NCBI GenBank assembly: GCA_021323535.1
Contig: JAJONO010000026.1
Span: 1 to 56,055, forward strand
Origin: Bacteroidota bacterium
GTDB lineage: Bacteria > Bacteroidota > Bacteroidia > B-17B0 > Aurantibacillaceae
Direction of reading: 5' to 3'
Length of the DNA stretch: 56,055 bases
Below the pieces are notes generated by a model. The model had not been told where the DNA came from. It ran no database searches and was given only the letters and a program-made list of their open reading frames with translations. Shown in pieces: positions 1 to 44,047 of the stretch. Position numbers and translations under genes: made by a program. The first letter of the stretch is position 1. The number at the start of each line of letters is the position of its first letter.

Positions 1-1097
1 TTGCTCTGGTAATTGAGAAAAGAATATCTTCTTAGTAATCTTATCTCGGAACCATAATTGTTGTAAACATCGCTGAGAAGATTTCTGTATTTGGAGGTGT
101 CGTCAACACGGTCGGGGCGACCCAAATGTCCCAATGCATCTCTTCCGGCCATGAGTCCAAATACAATAAAATTCAGTTTGGTTCTTTGGTTGATCTCGTA
201 ATCAACCACTACGGAATACAGGTTCCAATTCACTTTGAACCAGTTTCTGTTTCGTGTTACCTGGTAAGGATCATCTTTGAATTGCTTGTCTGTTAATCCT
301 CCTGGTTGTTGCGAAATGTAATTCAGAAACGTATAATCCCCCTTAATAGATAATCTGCTGTTTACTTTATATTTCACACTTCCGAAAGCGTTGTGATAAT
401 TGAGTGTTGAATTATCTCTCCAGCCATCGTAATGTTTGTATTGGTAAAACGCGTTATAAGAAATTTTACCTGCAGATCCTGCAAGCTGGTTAAATGAATT
501 AAGGAAGCCAAACGAAGCGCCTGTTTGCCTGAAATTTCCGGAAATGATTTTATTGGTTGGAGCGTCGTTGAATTTATAATTGATCATTCCTCCGAATTGT
601 GTTCCGTATTGCAGGCTGGCAGCTCCTCGTAAAATCTCTATACGCTCAATGGCTTCGGTGGGAGGCGTGTAATAACTTTCGGGATAACCAAGTGCGTCGG
701 CCGAAATATCGTAACCGTTCTGGCGCGTATTGAAGTTGGAGATCCTGTTAGGATTTAATCCGCGGCCACCAATACCGATCTGTGAACCCGATCCGTCGTT
801 TTCGAAAATATTTATTCCGGCAACTTTGGCAAATACCTGGCGGCTGTTATTAGCTGCAAGATTAGCGTTGAGATCGCCTACATAAATAGCTTCTGTTTTT
901 TTACCGGCGTAGATGGCTGTCCCTTCCACGTTTTTTAAACGGGAAATACCGAACGAATTATCCTTTGGTGTATAAATGATCACTTCCATAAGATCCACCG
1001 TTTTCTGTTTTTTCTTCAGCGTATCAGTAATGGAATCATTTTGTGAAATGAAGGCGAGCGACAAAAAAGTAAATATGTTTATCAGGACAAATCTCAT
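1..1097 (-). CDS. TonB-dependent receptor, N-terminal part (truncated by window edge)
   Basis: Reading leftwards from an ATG at 1097-1095, the frame stays open to base 1, so only about 365 residues are visible. A signal peptide (MRFVLINIFTFLSLAFISQ) is followed by a plug domain with the typical pattern 'NSRQVFAKVAGINIFENDG', then GIGGRGLNPNR, 'ERIEILRGAASLQYG' and 'GGMINY', and then the first barrel strands. These are hallmarks of FecA/FhuA-like outer-membrane receptors that import iron chelates or other scarce ligands with TonB energy. No carboxypeptidase-like (SusC) N-terminal extension is present, so this is a metal or siderophore-type receptor rather than a glycan receptor. Its ATG overlaps the stop of the upstream HTTM gene (TGATG), implying translational coupling. 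The substrate cannot be told from sequence. Confidence 0.93.
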   Translation of the reverse strand, partial: MRFVLINIFTFLSLAFISQNDSITDTLKKKQKTVDLMEVIIYTPKDNSFGISRLKNVEGTAIYAGKKTEAIYVGDLNANLAANNSRQVFAKVAGINIFENDGSGSQIGIGGRGLNPNRISNFNTRQNGYDISADALGYPESYYTPPTEAIERIEILRGAASLQYGTQFGGMINYKFNDAPTNKIISGNFRQTGASFGFLNSFNQLAGSAGKISYNAFYQYKHYDGWRDNSTLNYHNAFGSVKYKVNSRLSIKGDYTFLNYISQQPGGLTDKQFKDDPYQVTRNRNWFKVNWNLYSVVVDYEINQRTKLNFIVFGLMAGRDALGHLGRPDRVDDTSKYRNLLSDVYNNYGSEIRLLRRYSFLNYQS

Positions 1098-2434
1098 CAG
1101 TAACTTTTGATCCAGTTTTTATTTTTAAAAATCGAATTGCTTTCCAGGCTCAGGTCAACAGTAGGATCAATGAACTCTTTTGAACCTCTGCCATTAATAG
1201 TGACGTAACTTTGAGCACGTACCTTTGGATTACTGAAGCCTTTTTTTTCGTATTCCAGTTTCAGGAATTTAGCGTAGTCAATCATCATGTCAGGCTGAGT
1301 GGCCATCATTTTTTCCTGCATGTAAGTGAGGTAATCTTTATTATCAATCTCAATTTCTCTTCCCGAGTTTGGATCTGTAACAAAAAAGAAAGCTGTTCCG
1401 GCTTTTTCCATGAGCATAACGCGCCACGAAAAACGATAACCTTGTTCGGTCCAGAATAAATTTCCGGAATAAAAAAGATAACGAAAGGGTAGCAGCACTT
1501 GTATGGTTAACAAAACGGCGAACACCGCAACAACCACTTTTCTTAATTCAATTTTGGAGTCAGTGTTTTCGCGGGGATTAAAATATTTTGTGAATGACTT
1601 TAATTTATCAAGCAGTTTGATATGAAGTTCCTCTTTGAAAAAAATAATGGTGATGGTCATCATGATGTATGGGAACATACCAATGTTGAAGAAGAGCGCG
1701 GTTGCCAGGTGAAAGATCACAACAAATCCGTATGCAACATTAACAGTGCGACGGTTGAACAGAAAAAATCCAATGAGTAAATCGTAAATGCAACCGAACC
1801 AGCAAAAAACGTAAGCCATCCAATCCTGCTCCAGTAAACCCCCAACAACTGGCCAGTGTGAGAAAGCGGGTAGCCAGAGTTTTAAAGGCTGAGCTTCTAA
1901 CAACCAATCGGAATTTAATTTTGCGACGCCTGCGAAAAAATAAACGATGAACATCTGCAACTGCAGAATAAGAGTGTATGAGCGTGGAATTGTGTTTACT
2001 TCTGCGATTTTAAAAATTTTGTTGTCTGCCGAAAAGTTCTTCGCTGCCGGTAAAAATATGAGAATGAAAGAAACAAGACTCACAAAATAGTAATGGTTCA
2101 GGTAATTGGTTTTGTCGATCAGTTCAATGTAAGTAAAGAGAACGAAAAATAAAATGGCACTCAGTCTGTAAAACGCGCCGGCCATAATCCCTAAACTTGC
2201 CAGCAGAAGTAATCCGAAAACACAATACATTCCAACGTCTCCAAGAGGTTTTACCCATTCAAATCCGTAATACGGAAAAAACATTTTTGGCATAATGTAC
2301 ATGTTGTACACCCAGCCTTTTGCAATGAAACGGGTAATAGATAAAAACATCAAAGCCCCGAAAGCTATTCTGAAAATAATAAGCGGAGCAATGCTGACTT
2401 CCTGTTGGGAATATTTTTTTATGAGTTTAATCAC
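1097..2434 (-). CDS. HTTM / vitamin K-dependent gamma-carboxylase-like membrane protein
   Basis: This 445-residue polytopic membrane protein has about eight hydrophobic segments followed by a soluble C-terminal tail. The blocks 'DKTNYLNHYYF' (about residues 107-117) and 'FFAGVAKLNSDW' (about 166-177) match the HTTM family, which includes human gamma-glutamyl carboxylase. The lysine at about 172 aligns with the lysine I recall as the active-site base (AGVKKLDADW in the human enzyme). The start overlaps the end of the imelysin gene by 8 bp and the stop overlaps the receptor start, so the three genes form one operon. The bacterial function is not established. A role in modifying a partner of the receptor or imelysin is inference from gene order only. 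Confidence 0.85.
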   Translation of the reverse strand: MIKLIKKYSQQEVSIAPLIIFRIAFGALMFLSITRFIAKGWVYNMYIMPKMFFPYYGFEWVKPLGDVGMYCVFGLLLLASLGIMAGAFYRLSAILFFVLFTYIELIDKTNYLNHYYFVSLVSFILIFLPAAKNFSADNKIFKIAEVNTIPRSYTLILQLQMFIVYFFAGVAKLNSDWLLEAQPLKLWLPAFSHWPVVGGLLEQDWMAYVFCWFGCIYDLLIGFFLFNRRTVNVAYGFVVIFHLATALFFNIGMFPYIMMTITIIFFKEELHIKLLDKLKSFTKYFNPRENTDSKIELRKVVVAVFAVLLTIQVLLPFRYLFYSGNLFWTEQGYRFSWRVMLMEKAGTAFFFVTDPNSGREIEIDNKDYLTYMQEKMMATQPDMMIDYAKFLKLEYEKKGFSNPKVRAQSYVTINGRGSKEFIDPTVDLSLESNSIFKNKNWIKSY

Positions 2435-3575
2435 CGTCGCCGTCCTGGTAAGTAATCACAACACCTAATTGTGATGGCATATCTGTTTTTAATAGAACCA
2501 ATAATTTTACAAGTTCAATGTAAGCTGCGTCAACCTGTGCAGGGTTAGACATGACTTGTGCCGATAAAGGATTCTGTACCGCGCTCAGTTTTGATTTGGC
2601 AATAGCGAACTGATTTTTGATAGCTTCGTTGAGTGTTCCTCCGTTATACTCAGCTTTGATATGGTCAAGATAATCATCAAGGCCTTTTCCGTCTGTACCA
2701 TTAACACCTCTTCCTAAATAAGTATCTTCCAGTAAGTATAAGCTTTGCATAGCGTATTGCACCGATTGTCCGCCATAGTAAGCTTCACATTTGGTTGGTT
2801 CCTGTATACCCAGTGTTTTCTTCCCGAGAGGAATCCCAACTTTAGCATTTTTAATATAATCGAGCTGGTAATTGATCTGGTTCACAAGATAACCTATAGA
2901 ACTTCCCACGTCTGTTCCCTGCGAATTAATGAACGTGTTTCTATAAGTTCCCCACCCATTGATCACAAAAGTAAGTTTCGAAGACATGTCATTAAACAAA
3001 TCCGTTACATATTGTTTTTTATTGGCAGAAGCTGTGAAGGACTGTACAATACCTAACTCAGTTTGACCGTTTCCGTAGAATAAATAATCGAGGGCGGCTA
3101 ATCCTTTAGCGTCGAAGTTAGAGGCCGCGTTTAAATCATAACTTCCTGAATTGATGTTTGATTTTATAACGGGAGTATCGGTTGGAAAAACATTGAAGTT
3201 CATACGAAGGATCACGCTTTCGGCAGGACCAAATTCGTAGAGATCAATTTTCTGGTATTTTAAATAGGTATCGTTAAATTTTAATTTCAGTTGCTGGAAA
3301 TCAGTTTGCAGGCCGCTTGATTTAAATGTATTCCATGAAGCAACAAGTGTATCAAAACTTTTTTTGAAAATAGTGTAGTTGAGAAGAATAGCATTGTCGG
3401 CATAATTGGTAAGCATAGCCTCCTTATCGAATGGTTCAGTTGTTTCTTCAGGATTGTTATTGTTCTTTTTGTTTTTGCAATGAACAAGCGTAAAGATCAA
3501 CAAAACAAGTAGTGTTGACTTAGCTATTTTAATGGTATATTTTTTCAATTTCCGGGGATTTAAAAAGCTGTGCAA
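2427..3575 (-). CDS. Imelysin family lipoprotein (IrpA-like, peptidase M75 fold)
   Basis: The N-terminus is basic, then hydrophobic (about 18-30), then ends in a lipobox-like LVHC with Cys33, so the mature protein is probably a lipoprotein. The body carries the imelysin blocks 'GLAALDYLFYGNG' (about 158-170) and 'IPLGKKTLGIQEPTKCEAYY'. Imelysins are periplasmic or surface helical-bundle proteins tied to iron uptake; no peptidase activity should be assumed. The C-terminus is very acidic (DGDGD). It is the first gene of the imelysin-HTTM-receptor operon. The upstream DUF4856 gene is separated by a hairpin terminator at 3660-3688. The annotated ATG could be replaced by a TTG ten residues in; both retain the lipobox. 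Confidence 0.88.
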   Translation of the reverse strand: MHSFLNPRKLKKYTIKIAKSTLLVLLIFTLVHCKNKKNNNNPEETTEPFDKEAMLTNYADNAILLNYTIFKKSFDTLVASWNTFKSSGLQTDFQQLKLKFNDTYLKYQKIDLYEFGPAESVILRMNFNVFPTDTPVIKSNINSGSYDLNAASNFDAKGLAALDYLFYGNGQTELGIVQSFTASANKKQYVTDLFNDMSSKLTFVINGWGTYRNTFINSQGTDVGSSIGYLVNQINYQLDYIKNAKVGIPLGKKTLGIQEPTKCEAYYGGQSVQYAMQSLYLLEDTYLGRGVNGTDGKGLDDYLDHIKAEYNGGTLNEAIKNQFAIAKSKLSAVQNPLSAQVMSNPAQVDAAYIELVKLLVLLKTDMPSQLGVVITYQDGDGD

Positions 3576-3659
3576 AAATGGCTCTTATTCCCATGATTAT
3601 CAATACCAAAAACAGGGTATGTGGTTTTTAAGTTATTGTTTTTCAGTATTATATAAACA

Positions 3660-3688
3660 AAAAAGCAGTCCCGGAGAACTGCTTTTTT
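3660..3688. terminator. Bidirectional intrinsic terminator between DUF4856 and imelysin genes
   Basis: A-tract, stem GCAGT / ACTGC around CCCGGAGA, and T-tract (AAAAAGCAGT...ACTGCTTTTTT). It lies 22 bp past the DUF4856 stop on the minus strand. It probably ends or attenuates that transcript ahead of the imelysin operon. Confidence 0.8.
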
Positions 3689-3709
3689 TAACCTTGAATT
3701 AATTTTTAA

Positions 3710-4840
3710 TTAAAGTACGCTTGCGTCAAGGCTGTAGATCGAAGCAATTGTGTTGATCACATTGTCCATATCGGCAGCGGTCATGCTGTATAAGTTACTT
3801 CCGAAATAACCAATTAATGTGGCGATCTGCGAATCACTGATTTTCTTCTGAGTATTGTAACGGAAACCTTTAATGAAACCAATTCCTTCTGATAATAAGT
3901 GGTTACGGTTAGCGTCATCAGCAATGTTTGTTTTAGCCTGTTTCATGTAAGTGATGCAACGTGCAGCACCAACTTTTTCCCAGGTGTTTACAACAATTGT
4001 ACGGGCAGCATCGCGTTCAGTATCGTTTTTAGCGCTAACTGCAGCACGTCCTTTTAAGAATGCTGTCATAATAGTTGTGTTTGATTGGATAGCGTTGTTA
4101 ACATTGTTACAGTAGCTTCCCCAGTTTTTTAAACCGGTTGTGTTGGTTGGAAAATCGATAGGAACACCAAAGTATCCGAACGCTTCATCCCATGCTTTTT
4201 CCTGTGCCGTTTGTCCGTTAACAATCGTGCTATTATCAAATGAAGAAATAGTGTTTAAGATAGTTGTTGCTTTGTAATAAAGTAAAGCGCCCATTAATCC
4301 TTTTTCAACTTGTTCTTTGTATTCAAGTCCTGTAGCATTTACTAAAATAGCGCGGTTAGGAGAAACAAGTTTCCCTTTTGTGCCGTTTGAAGCAGTTGTT
4401 ACAGTTGGATTAGCAGCAGCAGTAATACTTGCAGGCTCAGCATCGTCGAACGCAGCTTCAAGTTCAGTAGCAATGTTGAATTGTGCCGAACACTGATCTT
4501 TTAATTGAATACCACTTGTGTTAGCGCCGGTAGTTGTGAATTGAGAAGCCACGTTCATGAACATGTCTTTTAATTTCTGCGCGCTTACAGTTGGCTGTGT
4601 TGCAGCAGTAATGGTGTGGGCTGCACGAATATGCCCCGCTAATTCTCCAAGCATAGCAATACGCTGCGTTGAAGTAGTAAAGTTAGCATTGGCAAAATTG
4701 TAAGTAGTTGGATACTGTAAAGCCGGAGTGCTTGGAGTTTCAACTGGTGTTTCTTCCGGTTCTTTGGTGTCTTTTTTACAGCTGCTGAATACAGTCATTG
4801 CAGCAAGAGCAACTAAAGGTAAGTAAAGTGATTTTTTCAT
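3710..4840 (-). CDS. DUF4856 domain lipoprotein
   Basis: A 376-residue protein with a lipoprotein signal (MKKSLYLPLVALAAMTVFSSC, Cys21), a charged Glu/Thr/Pro linker and a globular domain starting 'YPTTYNFANANFTTSTQRI'. That opening and the later 'SEGIGFIKGFRYN' are typical of DUF4856, a Bacteroidota family usually encoded beside imelysin and TonB receptors. It is probably anchored in the outer membrane and works with the imelysin and the receptor in ligand capture, but the biochemistry is unknown. It has its own upstream region (4841-5010) shared divergently with the next operon. I looked there for a Fur-like inverted repeat and did not find a convincing one. Confidence 0.88.
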   Translation of the reverse strand: MKKSLYLPLVALAAMTVFSSCKKDTKEPEETPVETPSTPALQYPTTYNFANANFTTSTQRIAMLGELAGHIRAAHTITAATQPTVSAQKLKDMFMNVASQFTTTGANTSGIQLKDQCSAQFNIATELEAAFDDAEPASITAAANPTVTTASNGTKGKLVSPNRAILVNATGLEYKEQVEKGLMGALLYYKATTILNTISSFDNSTIVNGQTAQEKAWDEAFGYFGVPIDFPTNTTGLKNWGSYCNNVNNAIQSNTTIMTAFLKGRAAVSAKNDTERDAARTIVVNTWEKVGAARCITYMKQAKTNIADDANRNHLLSEGIGFIKGFRYNTQKKISDSQIATLIGYFGSNLYSMTAADMDNVINTIASIYSLDASVL

Positions 4841-5010: not shown

Positions 5011-5763
5011 TTGGACTTCCCTCTCAATATTCATTTAGGTTCAAGAGAAATCTCTACTCATTTTGTAATGGAAATAGTTTCCATCTTCGTCGGAGTCCGT
5101 TATTACAGTTACCTGCGCAAAAAAAGCAACGATTCCATCAGTTCTATAAACAGGCTTATCATTTTTGCCGCTGTTTGCTTCGGCGCGCTTATTGGTTCCC
5201 GCGTCATTGGCGTGCTGGAACAGCCTTTCGCTTTTATGAATTCTGAAAATAAATTCGTTTACATTTTCAGTAACAAGACCATCGTTGGAGGATTGTTAGG
5301 CGGATTACTGGTCGTAGAAATTACCAAGAAATTAATAGGAGTAACATCGTCAAGCGGCGATATTATGACTTACCCTTTAATACTGGGATTGATCCTTGGA
5401 AGGATCGGCTGTTTCTGCGAGGGCCTTGCCGATGGCACGATAGGTAAAGCAACATCGTTGTTTACCGGAATTGATTTTGGCGACGGAATTCTTCGTCATC
5501 CCTTGCCTTTATACGAAATTATTTTTCTGATCTCATTATGGATTTTTATACGAATGATGGAAAAGAAAGGTCTTTCCAACGGTTCTAAATTCAAATTGTT
5601 CCTGATCAGTTATCTTTTTTACCGTTTCATGATCGAATTTCTCAAAGAAGAACAGTTTACATTTTTTTATCTCAGCGTTATTCAGTTAACTTGCTTTGCA
5701 GGATTAATTTATTACCTGCCTGTTATTTTAAAACCTAAAAAGTTATTTTTACAATATGCCTGA
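5011..5763 (+). CDS. Lgt-fold paralog (prolipoprotein diacylglyceryl transferase family, altered active site)
   Basis: A 250-residue, about seven-segment membrane protein. Lgt landmarks are present: GGLLGG (about 90-97), GRIG (130-133), HPLPLYE (163-169) and RFMIEF (205-210). Against the E. coli signature GRIGNFINGE, this protein reads GRIGCFCEGL, so the Asn and Glu of the signature are lost. The histidine of the HGG motif (E. coli H103 as I recall) is also replaced. The Arg205/Glu209 pair and H163/E169 are kept. It is therefore unlikely to be the cell's housekeeping Lgt; a phosphatidylglycerol- or lipid-handling transferase of another kind is the better guess. The start is TTG. Its end overlaps the radical SAM gene by 8 bp, implying joint production. 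Confidence 0.75.
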   Translation: MDFPLNIHLGSREISTHFVMEIVSIFVGVRYYSYLRKKSNDSISSINRLIIFAAVCFGALIGSRVIGVLEQPFAFMNSENKFVYIFSNKTIVGGLLGGLLVVEITKKLIGVTSSSGDIMTYPLILGLILGRIGCFCEGLADGTIGKATSLFTGIDFGDGILRHPLPLYEIIFLISLWIFIRMMEKKGLSNGSKFKLFLISYLFYRFMIEFLKEEQFTFFYLSVIQLTCFAGLIYYLPVILKPKKLFLQYA

Positions 5764-7150
5764 AAGAAGCTGGATATATTACGATTACACCATTAGTCTT
5801 TGTCACGAATGTCTTCGTCGTGTGAGCGCCAAAATTGTTTTCGAAGATAAAAATGTTTACATGATCAAAAGTTGCCCCGATCATGGCAATCATAAAATTC
5901 TTATCGCTACCGATATCGAATATTATAAACGTATCCGTAATTACAATAAACGCAGCGAAATTCCTCTTAAATTTAATACGCCCACTTTGTATGGTTGTCC
6001 TTACGATTGCGGCTTGTGTCCCGACCACGAGCAACATTCCTGTCTCACTTTAATTGAAGTGACAGATCGTTGCAATCTTACTTGTCCTACCTGTTATGCC
6101 GAATCAAGCCCTGATTTTGGCCGCCACCGTACGCTCGATGAAATAAAACGTATGCTGGATGTTATTGTAGAGAATGAAGGAAACCCTGATGTGGTTCAAT
6201 TGAGCGGGGGAGAGCCAACGATTCATCCGCAATTTTTTGAGATTCTGGATGAAGCTAAAAAACGTCCCATTAAACATCTCATGTTAAACACAAATGGTAT
6301 TCGCATTGCGAAGGATGAAGAGTTTGTGAAAAGACTGGCCACTTACATGCCCGACTTTGAAATATATCTGCAGTGGGACAGTTTTGATAATGCAGCTCTG
6401 AATAAACTGCGCGGCGCCGATCTTGCTGATATCCGCCTTAAAGCCATTGAACATTTAAATAAATACAATCTGTCTACTACATTGGTGGTTACACTTCAGC
6501 GCGGTGTAAACAATCACGAAATAGGAAAGATCATCGAATACGGATTGCAACAACCTTGTGTGCGTGGCGTTACTTTTCAGCCCACACAAGTTGCCGGAAG
6601 AAACGATAAATTCAATCCTAAAACCGAACGTTATACCATGACAGAGGTACGGCAGGATATTCTTGACCAGGCAAAAATATTTACTTCCGACGATTTAATT
6701 CCTGTACCCTGTAATCCGGATGCCTTGGTGATGGGTTATGCTTTAAAATTAGGAGATGAAGTGATTCCTCTCACGCGTTACATTAATCCCGCCGATCTGT
6801 TGGATAATTCGAAGAACACGATTGTTTATGAGCAGGATGAAAAATTGCATAAACACGTTTTGAAAATGTTCAGTACGGCCAATTCGGTGGACGCTATTAC
6901 AGAAGATGTGAATGAGCTGATGTGTTGTCTTCCTTTTGTAAAATCAGGAAATTTATCTTACAATAATTTGTTCCGGATCATTATTATGAATTTCATCGAT
7001 GCATATAACTTTGATGTTCGCGCCATCAAAAAATCCTGCGTTCACATTGTACACAACGATAAAATTATTCCGTTCGAAACCATGAATCTTTTTTACCGTA
7101 ACGGAAAAGACAAGCAGTTAGAAACATTAAGAGAATTAAAAATTGTATAA
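5756..7150 (+). CDS. Radical SAM enzyme of the MJ0619 / tetraether synthase (Tes)-like type
   Basis: A 464-residue protein. The radical SAM cluster motif CX3CX2C is at C106, C110 and C113 (DRCNLTCPTCYAE), followed by 'VQLSGGEPTIHPQF'. The N-terminal 100 residues are rich in metal ligands: C16/C19, C40-H43, C81/C85/C88-H91 and C96, including 'YGCPYDCGLCPDHEQHSC'. The C-terminal third has C428 in 'KKSCVHIVHNDKIIPF'. This arrangement matches the archaeal MJ0619 family, whose members join lipid alkyl chains (Tes) and carry extra iron-sulfur clusters plus a rubredoxin-like iron. Methylation chemistry has also been proposed for the family. Coupling to an Lgt-fold protein supports a lipid substrate, but this is inference. 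Assignment as a radical SAM enzyme is certain; the exact reaction is not. Confidence 0.9.
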   Translation: MPERSWIYYDYTISLCHECLRRVSAKIVFEDKNVYMIKSCPDHGNHKILIATDIEYYKRIRNYNKRSEIPLKFNTPTLYGCPYDCGLCPDHEQHSCLTLIEVTDRCNLTCPTCYAESSPDFGRHRTLDEIKRMLDVIVENEGNPDVVQLSGGEPTIHPQFFEILDEAKKRPIKHLMLNTNGIRIAKDEEFVKRLATYMPDFEIYLQWDSFDNAALNKLRGADLADIRLKAIEHLNKYNLSTTLVVTLQRGVNNHEIGKIIEYGLQQPCVRGVTFQPTQVAGRNDKFNPKTERYTMTEVRQDILDQAKIFTSDDLIPVPCNPDALVMGYALKLGDEVIPLTRYINPADLLDNSKNTIVYEQDEKLHKHVLKMFSTANSVDAITEDVNELMCCLPFVKSGNLSYNNLFRIIIMNFIDAYNFDVRAIKKSCVHIVHNDKIIPFETMNLFYRNGKDKQLETLRELKIV

Positions 7151-7151
7151 T

Positions 7152-7460
7152 ATGGAAGAAAATCAATATCAATATCAGTTTCAGCCGCAAACCCCACCCA
7201 ATGCCAAAAAAGCAGCCATGTGGGTCAATATTATCAATGCAATAGGATTAGGAATTATGCTTTTGCTTTGTCTCCCGGAGGATGGAGGTTTTATAGCCTT
7301 TATTCTTGGTTGCGTGCTTGCCTGTTATAACTTCATCAGTATGATCATTCAGTTCGCTAACAAAAATACAATGGCAGCTGTATTCAATATCATCTGGATG
7401 TTATTAATGCCAATTATAGGTTTTGGCTGTTGTGCCGCTACCATTAATTTTCATGGTTAG
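7152..7460 (+). CDS. Small three-segment membrane protein, unknown function
   Basis: About 102 residues from the ATG at 7152, one base after the radical SAM stop. An upstream in-frame TTG at 7143 would overlap that gene and is less likely. The N-terminus is Gln/Tyr/Pro-rich (EENQYQYQFQPQTPP). It is followed by three hydrophobic segments (about 21-43, 48-70, 75-98) with a GCC pair near the end. It resembles small Bacteroidota membrane proteins of the CD225/TM2 style but I cannot place it in a family. Its position makes it a likely third member of the Lgt-like/radical SAM operon. It ends 6 bp before the stop of the convergent gene. Confidence 0.75.
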   Translation: MEENQYQYQFQPQTPPNAKKAAMWVNIINAIGLGIMLLLCLPEDGGFIAFILGCVLACYNFISMIIQFANKNTMAAVFNIIWMLLMPIIGFGCCAATINFHG

Positions 7461-41116: not shown

Positions 41117-44047
41117 ATGAAGAGAATCCCTTTCCTGTTGATGATTTGTGCCCTTGTTGCCGGCTTTGCCCCCGGTGATACGGAACCTCCTGTAAAAAAA
41201 GCGCCCGACTATTTAGCCCAGCAAAGCCAGTGGGTAGACTCTGTGTTTAATACCATGACGCCAAAGCAACGTCTTGCCCAGTTATTTATGGTGGCCGCAT
41301 ACAGCAACAAGGATATGAAACACGTGAAGGAGATCAAAGAACTTGTCACCGTTCACGGAATCGGAGGATTGATATGGATGCAGGGTGGCCCGGTGAAACA
41401 GGGAAAACTAGCCAACTATTACCAAAGCGTTGCCAAGGTTCCTCTTCTTTACAGTATTGATGGCGAATGGGGTTTAGCCATGCGCCTCGACAGTACGCCG
41501 CGTTATCCTAAACAAATGACGCTCGGCGCCATTCAAAACGATTCTCTCATTTACCAGATGGGAAAACAGATTGCGAAAGAATGTAAACGTATTGGTCTTC
41601 ATGTAAACTTTGCTCCCGTTGCCGATGTAAATAATAATCCTGCTAATCCTGTTATTGGTATGAGGAGCTTTGGAGAGAATAAATACAAAGTGGCACAAAA
41701 GGCCTACATGTACATGGCCGGTATGCAGGACGAAAAAATTATGGCCAATGGAAAACATTTTCCGGGACATGGAGATACGGATGTAGATTCGCATAAAGGA
41801 CTTCCGGTTATCAATCATTCCATTGAGAGATTAGATTCCCTCGAATTATATCCTTTCCAGTATCTGTTCGATCGTGGTTTGGCAAGTATCATGGTGGCGC
41901 ACTTAAATATTCCAAGCCTCGATACAACAAAAAATCTCGCGTCAACCTTGTCTCCAAAAGTGGTGAACGATCTTCTTAAAACAAAAATGGGATTCAAGGG
42001 TCTTATCTTTACCGACGCGTTAAACATGAAAGGTGTTGCTAAATTCTTTGAACCAGGAGTTGTTGATGTGAAAGCGCTTCTGGCCGGAAACGATGTTCTT
42101 CTTTTCAGTGAGAATGTTCCAAAGGCGATGGCTGAAGTGGAGAAAGCAATTAAAGATGGAAAAGTAAGTCAGGAAGAGGTGGACGCACGCTGTAGAAAAA
42201 TTCTTCAGGCAAAATTCTGGTGCGGGCTAAATGTAAAGCCGGAAATTGTTACAAGAAATCTCTACAAAGAACTCAATACAAAACAAAGTTACGAACTTAA
42301 CGATAAACTTGCCGAAGCATCGATAACGCTTCTTAAAAACGAAAATAATTTCCTTCCGCTAAAAAACACCGATAGCATTAAAATGGTAGAAGTATCTTTT
42401 GGTATTGAAGATCATAACACGCTTTACTCTACACTAAAAGAATACGGTTACATTGAACATGTTGGATTAAAGCACGACGCTAAGCCAAAGGACATTAAGG
42501 AAGCTTTTGATAAAATTAAAAATGCCGATGTAGTTATTGTTCAGATCAACAAAGCCACATTAAAAGCAGAGAATAATTACGGAGTAGGGGAGCAAACACT
42601 TCGTCTTGCCGATTCAATCGCGCGATTGAAACCTACAGCATTGGTTATGCTCACCAATCCATATCTTTTCAATAAAATAAAAGATGTAAATAATTTCCGC
42701 TCTGTTATTCTTGCATACGAATACATGCCTTCGCTTTTAAAAGCATCGGCTAATGCAATTCTGGGTATAAGTAAAGTAAACGGAAGACTGCCTGTTAGTA
42801 CAACTCTCTTCAAAGGGGAAAGCGGTTTGGACATGGAACCTTTGTATCCTTCAAAAATTAAAACCGCGCAAACCAATTTTCTAAAAAAAAAGTTTGGGGT
42901 AGTGGATAGTATTGCGCTCTGGGGTATTGAAGAAAAAGCTTATCCCGGTTGCCAGATCGTTGCTCTTAAAGATGGTAAAGTTATTTATCAGAAAGCGTTC
43001 GGAAAGTTTACGTATAATCCCGAAGCCAAAGAAGTAGACAACGGAACCCTTTACGATCTTGCCAGCGTCACAAAAATCACGTCATCGGCGCTCGCGCTAA
43101 TGAAGCTGGCTTCTGATAATAAATTCGATTATAGAAAACGTCTTGGCGACTATCTTCCTTCGCTAAAAGGTTCTAATAAAGATAGTCTCCTTATTGAAGA
43201 TGTTCTTACTCACCGCGCGGGTCTACAGGCCTGGATCCCTTTCTATTTAAAAACACTCGATAAAAAAGGCGATTATAAACCCGGAATTTATGCCACAAAA
43301 CAATCAGAAACATATTCGGTTCACGTGGCAAAGAAATTGTATGTGAAAAAAGACTTCACCGACTCAATGTATAAGCGCATCATTACTTCAAAACTCGAAA
43401 ACCCTGGAAAATATGTATACAGCGATCTTGGTTATTATTTCATGCAACAGATCATTGAACAACAGGCGCAGAAAAAACAGGATGATTATGTGAAAGATCT
43501 GTATGCCCAGATGGGGCTTGGGCTCACGTACAATCCTTTAAAATATTTTTCTGTTCAACAGATCGCTCCGACTGAAAATGATACTAAATTCAGAAAACAA
43601 ACCATTCAGGGGTTTGTGCATGATCCGGGTGCAGCTTTGCTCGGAGGCGTTGCAGGCCATGCCGGATTATTCGGTACAGCGCTTGATGTTGCAAAACTTA
43701 TGCAGATGTATCTTAACAAAGGAGAATTAAATGGTGTAAGAATTCTGGACAGTAACGTTGTAAAGGATTTTACTTCCTGCCATTTCTGTCCTGATAACCG
43801 CCGCGGATTGTGCTTTGAAAAACCTGAGCCGGATGATAAAAAAGACAGTCCCGTTACCTCAGAGTGTAGCCTGGCAAGTTTTGGTCATAGTGGATTTACC
43901 GGTACATTTGTGTGGGCCGACCCTAAAAATAATCTCGTGGTTGTTTTCCTCAGCAACCGTGTTTATCCCGATGCCGAACCAAACAAGCTTGCTAAGTTGG
44001 GAGTGAGGGGTAAGATCCACAGGGCATTTTACGACGCACTCAAATAA
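41117..44047 (+). CDS. Fusion: GH3 beta-N-acetylglucosaminidase (NagZ-type) + class C beta-lactamase-like domain
   Basis: 976 residues with an N-terminal export signal (MKRIPFLLMICALVAGFAPG). Residues about 35-385 are a GH3 domain with the NagZ-type active-site loop KHFPGHGDTDVDSHKGLPVI (about 213-232) and 'GLIFTDALNMKGVAKFF' containing the catalytic Asp. A GH3 C-terminal-like region follows. From about 610 there is a serine beta-lactamase/DD-peptidase fold with 'LASVTK' (SxxK, about 649), 'YSDLGYYF' and 'HSGFTGTF'. It probably trims peptidoglycan fragments in the periplasm. A Shine-Dalgarno-like AGGA precedes the ATG, rare in this window. Free-standing genes follow. Confidence 0.92.
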   Translation: MKRIPFLLMICALVAGFAPGDTEPPVKKAPDYLAQQSQWVDSVFNTMTPKQRLAQLFMVAAYSNKDMKHVKEIKELVTVHGIGGLIWMQGGPVKQGKLANYYQSVAKVPLLYSIDGEWGLAMRLDSTPRYPKQMTLGAIQNDSLIYQMGKQIAKECKRIGLHVNFAPVADVNNNPANPVIGMRSFGENKYKVAQKAYMYMAGMQDEKIMANGKHFPGHGDTDVDSHKGLPVINHSIERLDSLELYPFQYLFDRGLASIMVAHLNIPSLDTTKNLASTLSPKVVNDLLKTKMGFKGLIFTDALNMKGVAKFFEPGVVDVKALLAGNDVLLFSENVPKAMAEVEKAIKDGKVSQEEVDARCRKILQAKFWCGLNVKPEIVTRNLYKELNTKQSYELNDKLAEASITLLKNENNFLPLKNTDSIKMVEVSFGIEDHNTLYSTLKEYGYIEHVGLKHDAKPKDIKEAFDKIKNADVVIVQINKATLKAENNYGVGEQTLRLADSIARLKPTALVMLTNPYLFNKIKDVNNFRSVILAYEYMPSLLKASANAILGISKVNGRLPVSTTLFKGESGLDMEPLYPSKIKTAQTNFLKKKFGVVDSIALWGIEEKAYPGCQIVALKDGKVIYQKAFGKFTYNPEAKEVDNGTLYDLASVTKITSSALALMKLASDNKFDYRKRLGDYLPSLKGSNKDSLLIEDVLTHRAGLQAWIPFYLKTLDKKGDYKPGIYATKQSETYSVHVAKKLYVKKDFTDSMYKRIITSKLENPGKYVYSDLGYYFMQQIIEQQAQKKQDDYVKDLYAQMGLGLTYNPLKYFSVQQIAPTENDTKFRKQTIQGFVHDPGAALLGGVAGHAGLFGTALDVAKLMQMYLNKGELNGVRILDSNVVKDFTSCHFCPDNRRGLCFEKPEPDDKKDSPVTSECSLASFGHSGFTGTFVWADPKNNLVVVFLSNRVYPDAEPNKLAKLGVRGKIHRAFYDALK

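Follow-up and report, generated by a model that had tools for sequence, protein, structure and literature searches.

Lgt-like, Tes-like and cysteine-tailed membrane protein genes travelling together in Bacteroidota suggest an undescribed way of putting an unusual lipid on a protein

A three-gene unit in a Bacteroidota genome

Our analysis concerns three adjacent genes on the forward strand of a 56,055-nucleotide stretch of DNA (hereafter the window; contig JAJONO010000026.1, positions 1 to 56,055) from a 5.3 Mb draft genome of the phylum Bacteroidota. The first open reading frame (ORF; 5011-5763, 250 amino acids, TTG start) encodes a paralog with the Lgt fold, the second (5756-7150, 464 amino acids, ATG start) a radical S-adenosylmethionine (SAM) enzyme resembling Tes, and the third (7152-7460, 102 amino acids, ATG at 7152) a small membrane protein with about three predicted transmembrane (TM) helices, which we propose as an acceptor. 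The ORF coordinates confirm the original prediction, made from the sequence alone, that these genes form one unit. The first two lie head to tail on the same strand and share 8 bp, and a single base separates the stop codon of the radical SAM gene from the ATG at 7152, an in-frame alternative TTG being present at 7143. The module enzyme is patchily distributed in its genus, where matches above 200 bits number 6 among 36 congeners.

The product of the first gene belongs to the Pfam family LGT (79.9-80.4 bits, cut-off 24.9). Its AlphaFold model (predicted local distance difference test score, pLDDT, 91.8) matches E. coli Lgt (5azb) with a Z score of 14.4 and a root-mean-square deviation (rmsd) of 4.8 over 242 residues, the next match reaching Z 7.4, although helical models often attain Z scores of about 14. 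The Lgt fold that had been proposed is thus borne out by family and by structure. Scores were below the cut-offs of three NCBIfam Lgt models (51.5 versus 118.9 bits for TIGR00544, 41.3 versus 334, and 36 versus 409). Only one further LGT match was found in the same genome; at 224 bits, it looks like the ordinary Lgt. A further LGT gene was present in all seven module or paralog genomes checked (the window's own genome, G057, G075, G152, G177, G212 and G287).

The donor glycerol of E. coli Lgt is surrounded by F102, R143, E202, Y235, R239, W256 and Y259, and R239 is essential (PMC4728403). The equivalents of R143, E202, Y235 and R239 in the window paralog are R131, E169, Y201 and R205, and each of these four positions is invariant in 112 of 112 paralogs. 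Two other positions are changed. At the position of H103 the window paralog carries V92, and the 112 paralogs carry Val (54), Met (42), Leu (9), Ile (4), Ala (2) or Thr (1); at the position of N146, Cys134 of the window paralog is matched by Cys in all 112. As controls we used fourteen lower-scoring Lgt-family matches of the phylum together with the ordinary Lgt of the window's genome. Nine of the fourteen and the latter copy are of the ordinary type, with His at H103 and Asn at N146, and these ten have Leu, Ile or Val at the Y235 position, as opposed to Tyr in every paralog. Four other family members (in G224, G358, G318 and G145) combine Tyr at H103 with Cys at N146, and G287 holds a third LGT gene, whose product shows Cys at N146 but no His at H103. 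The Tyr/Cys-type gene is the sole LGT-family gene of G224 and G358, so that Cys at N146 appears compatible with ordinary Lgt work, which also takes away one argument against Lgt chemistry in the module. Because Tyr/Cys-type proteins exist elsewhere, the module paralogs are distinguished solely by a hydrophobic residue at the H103 position, or Thr in one case. For G224, G358 and G318, the ORF starts within the 8 kb surrounding the Lgt gene, read without a family scan, gave no sign of a radical SAM gene of the module kind. The genes of G224 (L223) and G358 (L234), both from near-complete genomes, are in their own right natural Lgt variants, altered at positions regarded as essential or conserved in the E. 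coli protein.

The radical SAM protein scored 97.9 bits with Pfam Radical_SAM and 62 bits with Zn_ribbon_HMPTM (PF23545), both above cut-off. For comparison of its metal sites we used the ligands reported for GDGT-MAS (PMC9433317). The SAM-cluster motif CX3CX2C is formed by C106, C110 and C113, a rubredoxin-type site C-x2-C-x20-C-x2-H by C16, C19, C40 and H43, and an N-terminal cluster site, C-x3-C-x2-C plus His, by C81, C85, C88 and H91, the latter two sites being as in Tes. Late cysteines are C319, C390, C391 and C428. The CX3CX2C motif, the Cys/His-rich N-terminus and the late Cys recognized in the original prediction could therefore be assigned to individual residues. The N-terminal cluster site is absent from the enzyme of L146 and from both Mycobacterium enzymes described below. 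Met439 of GDGT-MAS is kept as M411, while Tyr459 is replaced by Ile431, leaving the Met-Tyr pair incomplete. Both residues are conserved across 1000 archaeal homologues, and the variants Y459F/L and M439A were reported to be active (PMC9433317).

In a sequence search of the PDB the nearest relative by far was Methanocaldococcus GDGT-MAS (E 4.4e-65), and the AlphaFold model (pLDDT 82.3, below 50 for residues 369-391) matched 7tom along its whole length (Z 43.0, rmsd 2.6, 413 of 464 residues). The next other protein was MoaA (Z 19.8), and the peptide maturases listed reached at most 19.2. The Tes-like character claimed for the enzyme therefore holds for the fold, but by curated cut-off the enzyme is not Tes. 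With the NCBIfam Tes model (NF045702) it scored 270.8 bits against a cut-off of 450; the name was rejected, and Tes was kept as a guide to fold and chemistry. TrsS (NF045646) gave the best NCBIfam score, yet this assignment also fell short (324 bits against 490). Eight of eight module enzymes scanned lie below both cut-offs, the Tes scores of the seven others being 272.6-305.8 bits for five and 149.5 and 142.6 bits for two divergent ones. No substrate is given for TrsS, the nearest named family, in the excerpts available of a review (PMC13188914). The enzyme was thus not placed in a clade with a known non-lipid substrate, the outcome that had been named beforehand as speaking against a lipid role. 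A defence system was considered and dismissed, the only matches of this kind being partial, viperin-like ones to the radical SAM core. A tree built from 30 enzymes placed the 26 that belong to the module on one side, with support of only 72/83 and long branches.

Linkage and co-occurrence of the genes

A scan of named genomes yielded 557 relatives of the enzyme, of which the best 80, all from Bacteroidota, were used. The Lgt paralog lies inside the locus in 77 of these 80 records. The end of its ORF is at most 100 bp from the enzyme ORF in 65 of the 77; in the remaining 12 the distance ranges from 139 bp to 5.5 kb. Of the three exceptions, two genomes carry the paralog elsewhere, at about 330 bits, and in the third a contig end truncates the locus and the genome yielded no paralog match.

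Co-occurrence was assessed in 395 genomes spread evenly over the phylum. PF23545 exceeded its cut-off in 34 of them, and two of the 34 enzymes represent other Tes subfamilies (26-28% identity). The paralog profile gave at least 140 bits in 32 of the 395 genomes, followed by a gap down to 67. Matches to this profile extend over 177 genomes, those below 140 bits being represented in our data by the fourteen control matches and G152. The paralog is present in all 32 genomes with an enzyme of the module clade. In 31 of them it reaches at least 140 bits, and in G152 it was recognized by a wider profile; the two genes of G152 form a divergent adjacent pair whose paralog rose from 58 bits under the first profile to 186.7 under the wider profile. 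Both genes are present on different contigs in G092 and G328. The distance matrices of the Lgt and radical SAM proteins correlate over 104 loci (r 0.85, 0 of 2000 permutations), although a shared species history alone can cause such a correlation. The linkage of paralog and enzyme is far from chance. The survey of conserved linkage that the original prediction had set as its test thus came out in its favour, within Bacteroidota and, as described below, on plasmids of Actinomycetota.

These data bear on one alternative explanation of the first gene, namely that it encodes an ordinary second Lgt serving ordinary lipoproteins and that its adjacency to the enzyme is incidental. Such a role would agree with the Pfam score, with the Lgt fold and with the Cys at N146 in the sole Lgt of two genomes. 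It is nonetheless highly improbable, because the paralog accompanies the enzyme in 32 of 32 genomes, unlinked ones included, because the window paralog scores below the cut-offs of all three NCBIfam Lgt models that it matched, and because neither His nor Tyr stands at H103 in any of the 112 paralogs. On the latter two grounds the identification of the window paralog as an ordinary Lgt was rejected.

Outside the phylum, two Mycobacterium plasmids carry the module, each with an Lgt-family gene, a radical SAM gene 31-32% identical in product to the window enzyme, and two membrane proteins with a cysteine near the C-terminus. The tails of these small proteins read ...AGICTGLNP, ...AGYCTGLNP, ...GGLCTGLNP and ...VGVCTGLNP. 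A Nonomuraea record contains the pair of Lgt and enzyme genes. In the Lgt copies of Mycobacterium and Nonomuraea, Leu occupies the H103 position and Cys that of N146.

Several other loci came to light in these surveys. In the Bacteroidota genome G122 a radical SAM enzyme (L151, 4464-5918) exceeded the NCBIfam Tes cut-off with 493.8 bits, which makes it, by its sequence, a candidate bacterial lipid-coupling enzyme; the sole paralog-profile match of this genome (80.9 bits) is an ordinary-type Lgt with His at H103 and Asn at N146. A lone paralog was found in G075 (L166, 3953-4798), with no enzyme-profile match in the genome and no Cys-tail protein nearby; it could be either a relic or a gene with a second role. 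On a Mycolicibacterium plasmid (L181, 4971-7339) and a haloarchaeal plasmid (L183, 4893-7171) a Tes-like radical SAM gene is followed directly by a methyltransferase gene, the Mycolicibacterium gene also lying near CcdA and a second radical SAM gene. No Lgt gene is annotated in either stretch.

The small membrane protein as a possible lipid acceptor

The small membrane protein had been treated as a bystander, and this part of the original prediction is not supported. A tail cysteine that is kept (105 of 111 loci) while the rest of the sequence varies freely makes it the most informative part of the module. It matches no Pfam or NCBIfam family, and no second copy above chance was found in its own genome (best other match E 0.096). 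In the window the tail motif G90-F91-G92-C93-C94 is encoded at 7419-7433 on the forward strand. Its C94 stands where the last TM helix ends, 8 residues from the C-terminus, and in the alignment it shares a column with the tail cysteine of related proteins.

The first small TM ORF downstream of the enzyme, chosen regardless of cysteine content, is present in 77 of the 80 named loci. A Cys occurs within the last 26 residues of 74 of these 77 proteins, as compared with 12 of 39 other small TM ORFs from the same loci, and the motif [GS]x[GSA]xC in 70 of 77 as compared with 6 of 39. Under a stricter definition, tail-Cys proteins were found in 105 of 111 loci, including 78 of the 80 named records, and total 135. 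One copy is present at 76 loci, two in tandem at 28, and three at a single locus. The motif [GS]x[GSA]xC occurs in 118 of the 135; the typical tail reads [IV]-[GS]-[FL]-[GS]-x-Cys, with a median of 7 residues beyond the Cys. Tail-Cys ORFs reach a density of 0.56 per kb near the module versus 0.012 per kb elsewhere, a count based on 140 ORFs of which 5 were later dropped because they overlap the Lgt or enzyme gene by more than 60 bases. The dropped ORFs of L146 and L150 look real, with a mis-called start, and both loci were counted as missing; the others so counted are L035, where the protein lies 2 kb off behind an inserted gene, L077 and L153 at contig ends, and L154 with its unlinked genes. 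The 111 loci exclude L151 and L152, which belong to other Tes subfamilies, and hold some species twice from two collections (by sequence, for example, L070/L156 and L084/L157).

The small gene stands behind the enzyme gene in 129 of the 135 cases. It lies between the Lgt and radical SAM genes in L163 (5063-5296) and L179 (4439-4672), from two genomes of one family (f22); in L149 it follows the Lgt gene, and in L035 an inserted gene comes before it. Across 52 diverse small proteins the mean column identity is 15%, and M1 and the tail Cys are the sole invariant columns; nearly all members of this alignment were picked by the tail-Cys criterion, so that the invariance of the Cys is partly selected, which does not apply to the count of 74 of 77. 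The tail Cys is the only cysteine in 56 of the 135 proteins. Before the last TM helix Lys and Arg average 2.96 and Asp and Glu 0.34, and after the Cys Lys and Arg average 0.24; by the positive-inside rule, the tail Cys is therefore predicted to be periplasmic. A short, fast-changing and often duplicated protein with one kept cysteine, encoded beside two enzymes, looks like an acceptor.

A fixed cysteine could also be a cofactor ligand, the small protein then being an electron-transfer or metal-binding partner of the enzyme, as radical SAM enzymes require reductants. This is very unlikely: 56 of the 135 proteins have only that Cys, no other ligand residue is fixed, and the prediction places the Cys where a helix reaches the periplasm. 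The short, variable, tandem partners with their one fixed Cys also resemble the precursors of ribosomally synthesized and post-translationally modified peptides. The enzyme might accordingly modify the small protein directly, for example by joining the tail Cys through a thioether to a lipid tail or some other carbon, with the Lgt-like protein as membrane carrier or lipid trimmer; the chemistry of GDGT-MAS does run via a C-S bond to a cluster (PMC9433317). The best structural match is, however, a lipid-tail enzyme, with Z 43 compared with at most 19.2 among the listed peptide maturases, and the Cys is predicted to lie across the membrane from the enzyme. We regard this alternative as rather improbable.

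A pathway for free lipids deserves more weight, even if it also remains on the unlikely side. In this alternative, the one nearest to the original prediction, the enzyme couples or thiolates the tails of membrane lipids and the Lgt-fold protein exchanges or presents the headgroup. The small protein would serve as a lipid chaperone or membrane subunit, with a structural or redox role for its Cys. The GDGT-MAS fold and metal sites of the enzyme, the retained donor residues of the Lgt paralog and the interpretation of density in the GDGT-MAS crystal as phosphatidic acid (PMC9433317) are all consistent with it. However, the small protein evolves by far the fastest (15% mean column identity versus 57% for the enzyme and 42% for the paralog) and is present in one to three copies, which would be unusual for an obligate subunit, and a chaperone would need no single fixed C-terminal Cys.

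The reading that we favour, tentatively and at somewhat less than an even chance, is a single protein-modification module. The Lgt-like enzyme would put a lipid on the tail Cys of the small protein, which serves as acceptor, and the Tes-like enzyme would modify the tail of that lipid. A C-terminal Cys that stays fixed while the remaining sequence drifts is what one expects of a protein acceptor, an Lgt relative with intact donor residues suggests that a glyceride is placed on the tail Cys, and a relative of Tes suggests lipid-tail chemistry. The last TM helix of the small protein would have its positive side in the cytoplasm and its periplasmic end at [GS]-x-[GS]-x-Cys, a layout that resembles a lipoprotein signal peptide, though placed C-terminally and mostly without the lipobox residues. 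The Lgt-fold enzyme, to judge from its donor residues, would bind phosphatidylglycerol as Lgt does and move the diacylglyceryl group onto the tail Cys. In E. coli Lgt, H103 belongs to the HGGL motif, for which a role in holding the lipobox peptide was proposed (PMC4728403); the hydrophobic residue that the module paralogs have in its place would fit a different acceptor. At the cytoplasmic face the Tes-like enzyme, judging by its fold and metal sites, may then take a hydrogen from the end of the lipid tail and form a bond from carbon to carbon or to sulfur. What the data show is the linkage, the co-occurrence, the fixed tail Cys, the kept and changed enzyme residues and the predicted folds, whereas the topology, the acceptor role, the two reactions and the order in which they occur are deduced. 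The product would be a protein with an altered, possibly membrane-spanning lipid anchor.

A number of observations weigh against this module of protein modification. Its chemistry is deduced, and the modified protein and the lipid are both hypothetical. The enzyme is predicted on the cytoplasmic side and the tail Cys on the periplasmic one. The consensus of the lipobox is [LVI][ASTVI][GAS]C after an N-terminal signal peptide; the tail Cys is C-terminal and fits this consensus in only 3 of 135 proteins. H103 is essential in E. coli Lgt (PMC4728403), and 0 of 112 paralogs have His there. R246 of E. coli Lgt tolerates no tested change, Lys included (PMC4728403), and the position is Lys in 105 of 112 paralogs, an objection weakened by the Lys at the same position in the ordinary Lgt of the window's genome. 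The unlinked paralogs L219 and L220 lack equivalents of E243 and R246. The changes at H103 and N146 are only partly specific to the module and are weaker pointers to a new acceptor for that reason. G075 has the paralog without the enzyme, the sole such genome at 140 bits or more. Finally, G092 (L154, L164) yielded no tail-Cys protein next to the one gene or the other, and none was among the ORFs listed around the Nonomuraea pair.

With regard to the lipid reading of the original prediction, a link to lipids remains probable, whereas the claim that the operon serves to make or move an unusual membrane lipid, the small protein being no more than a bystander, is unsupported as stated. A bolder form of our reading is that the module defines a new class of lipidated membrane proteins, in Bacteroidota and on actinobacterial plasmids, in which an Lgt-derived enzyme lipidates a Cys at the C-terminal end of a TM helix with a phosphatidylglycerol-derived lipid and a Tes-derived radical SAM enzyme then welds the tail of this lipid to a second lipid or thiolates it, so that a covalently altered and perhaps membrane-spanning anchor holds the protein. 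We consider this doubtful, with perhaps a minority chance of being right. If the module acts as proposed, an Lgt relative would lipidate the C-terminal end of a membrane protein, and this would be, to our knowledge, the first case in which radical chemistry that couples lipid tails is connected with the anchoring of a protein. The module gives a branch of the distant Tes relatives two fixed partners and a concrete acceptor candidate, a single cysteine in a protein of about 100 residues. The travelling together of Lgt-like, Tes-like and Cys-tail genes suggests an undescribed way of putting an unusual lipid on a protein.

Elsewhere in the window, positions 1097-4840 on the reverse strand hold a vitamin K carboxylase-like protein (HTTM and lumenal domain) with an imelysin (M75) gene and a DUF4856 gene adjoining, a trio that looks like an iron- or metal-related surface cluster. 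On the forward strand, a single ORF at 41117-44047 combines glycoside hydrolase family 3 domains with a following beta-lactamase-fold domain.

Relation to known systems

No paper on the pairing of Lgt and radical SAM genes or on the Cys-tail protein was found among the best PubMed Central matches, a scope that leaves out subscription papers and preprints. An idea similar to ours may have been held by the curators of NF058595, the "lipo-invert putative C-terminal anchoring domain", for another set of proteins, which somewhat lowers the novelty here. The likeness is by name only, to a membrane tail at the C-terminus thought to be an inverted lipoprotein anchor. Although this family matches the most small proteins (4 of 52 at E values up to 1, best E 0.013), it was rejected as their family, with 13.8 bits as the best score among the matches listed against a cut-off of 37 and none of the 395 genomes over cut-off. 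A literature search on the lipo-invert name found nothing relevant among the best PubMed Central matches.

Compared with Lgt (5azb; TIGR00544), the paralog shares the fold, the Pfam family and the donor-pocket residues R143, E202, Y235 and R239. It differs in having neither His nor Tyr at H103, in scoring below TIGR00544 and in a proposed acceptor without a lipobox.

Among lipid-coupling enzymes of bacteria, the membrane-spanning lipid synthase Mss was compared by description only; its models are reported to share the catalytic architecture of Tes (PMC13274423). Hundreds of bacterial Tes homologues have been reported, their products not shown in the accessible parts of these papers (PMC8941075, PMC9433317). 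Zeng et al. counted 456 of them and proposed a role in branched glycerol dialkyl glycerol tetraethers (GDGTs; PMC8941075), and Lloyd et al. noted bacterial homologues in organisms not known for making biphytanyl chains (PMC9433317). Because the module branch comes with a different set of genes, our results advise caution in taking bacterial Tes matches as markers of tetraether or branched GDGT producers.

TrsS, a radical SAM (seleno)protein (NF045646) whose function is not stated in the available part of the review (PMC13188914), gives the best NCBIfam score of the module enzyme, yet the enzyme remains under its cut-off. With GDGT-MAS/Tes (7tol/7tom, NF045702) the enzyme has in common the fold, the rubredoxin, N-terminal cluster and SAM sites and the position of the labile Met ligand. 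It differs in lacking an insert of about 20 residues, in its C96 and its C390/C391 pair, which have no aligned Cys counterpart, and in being linked to an Lgt paralog and a Cys-tail protein.

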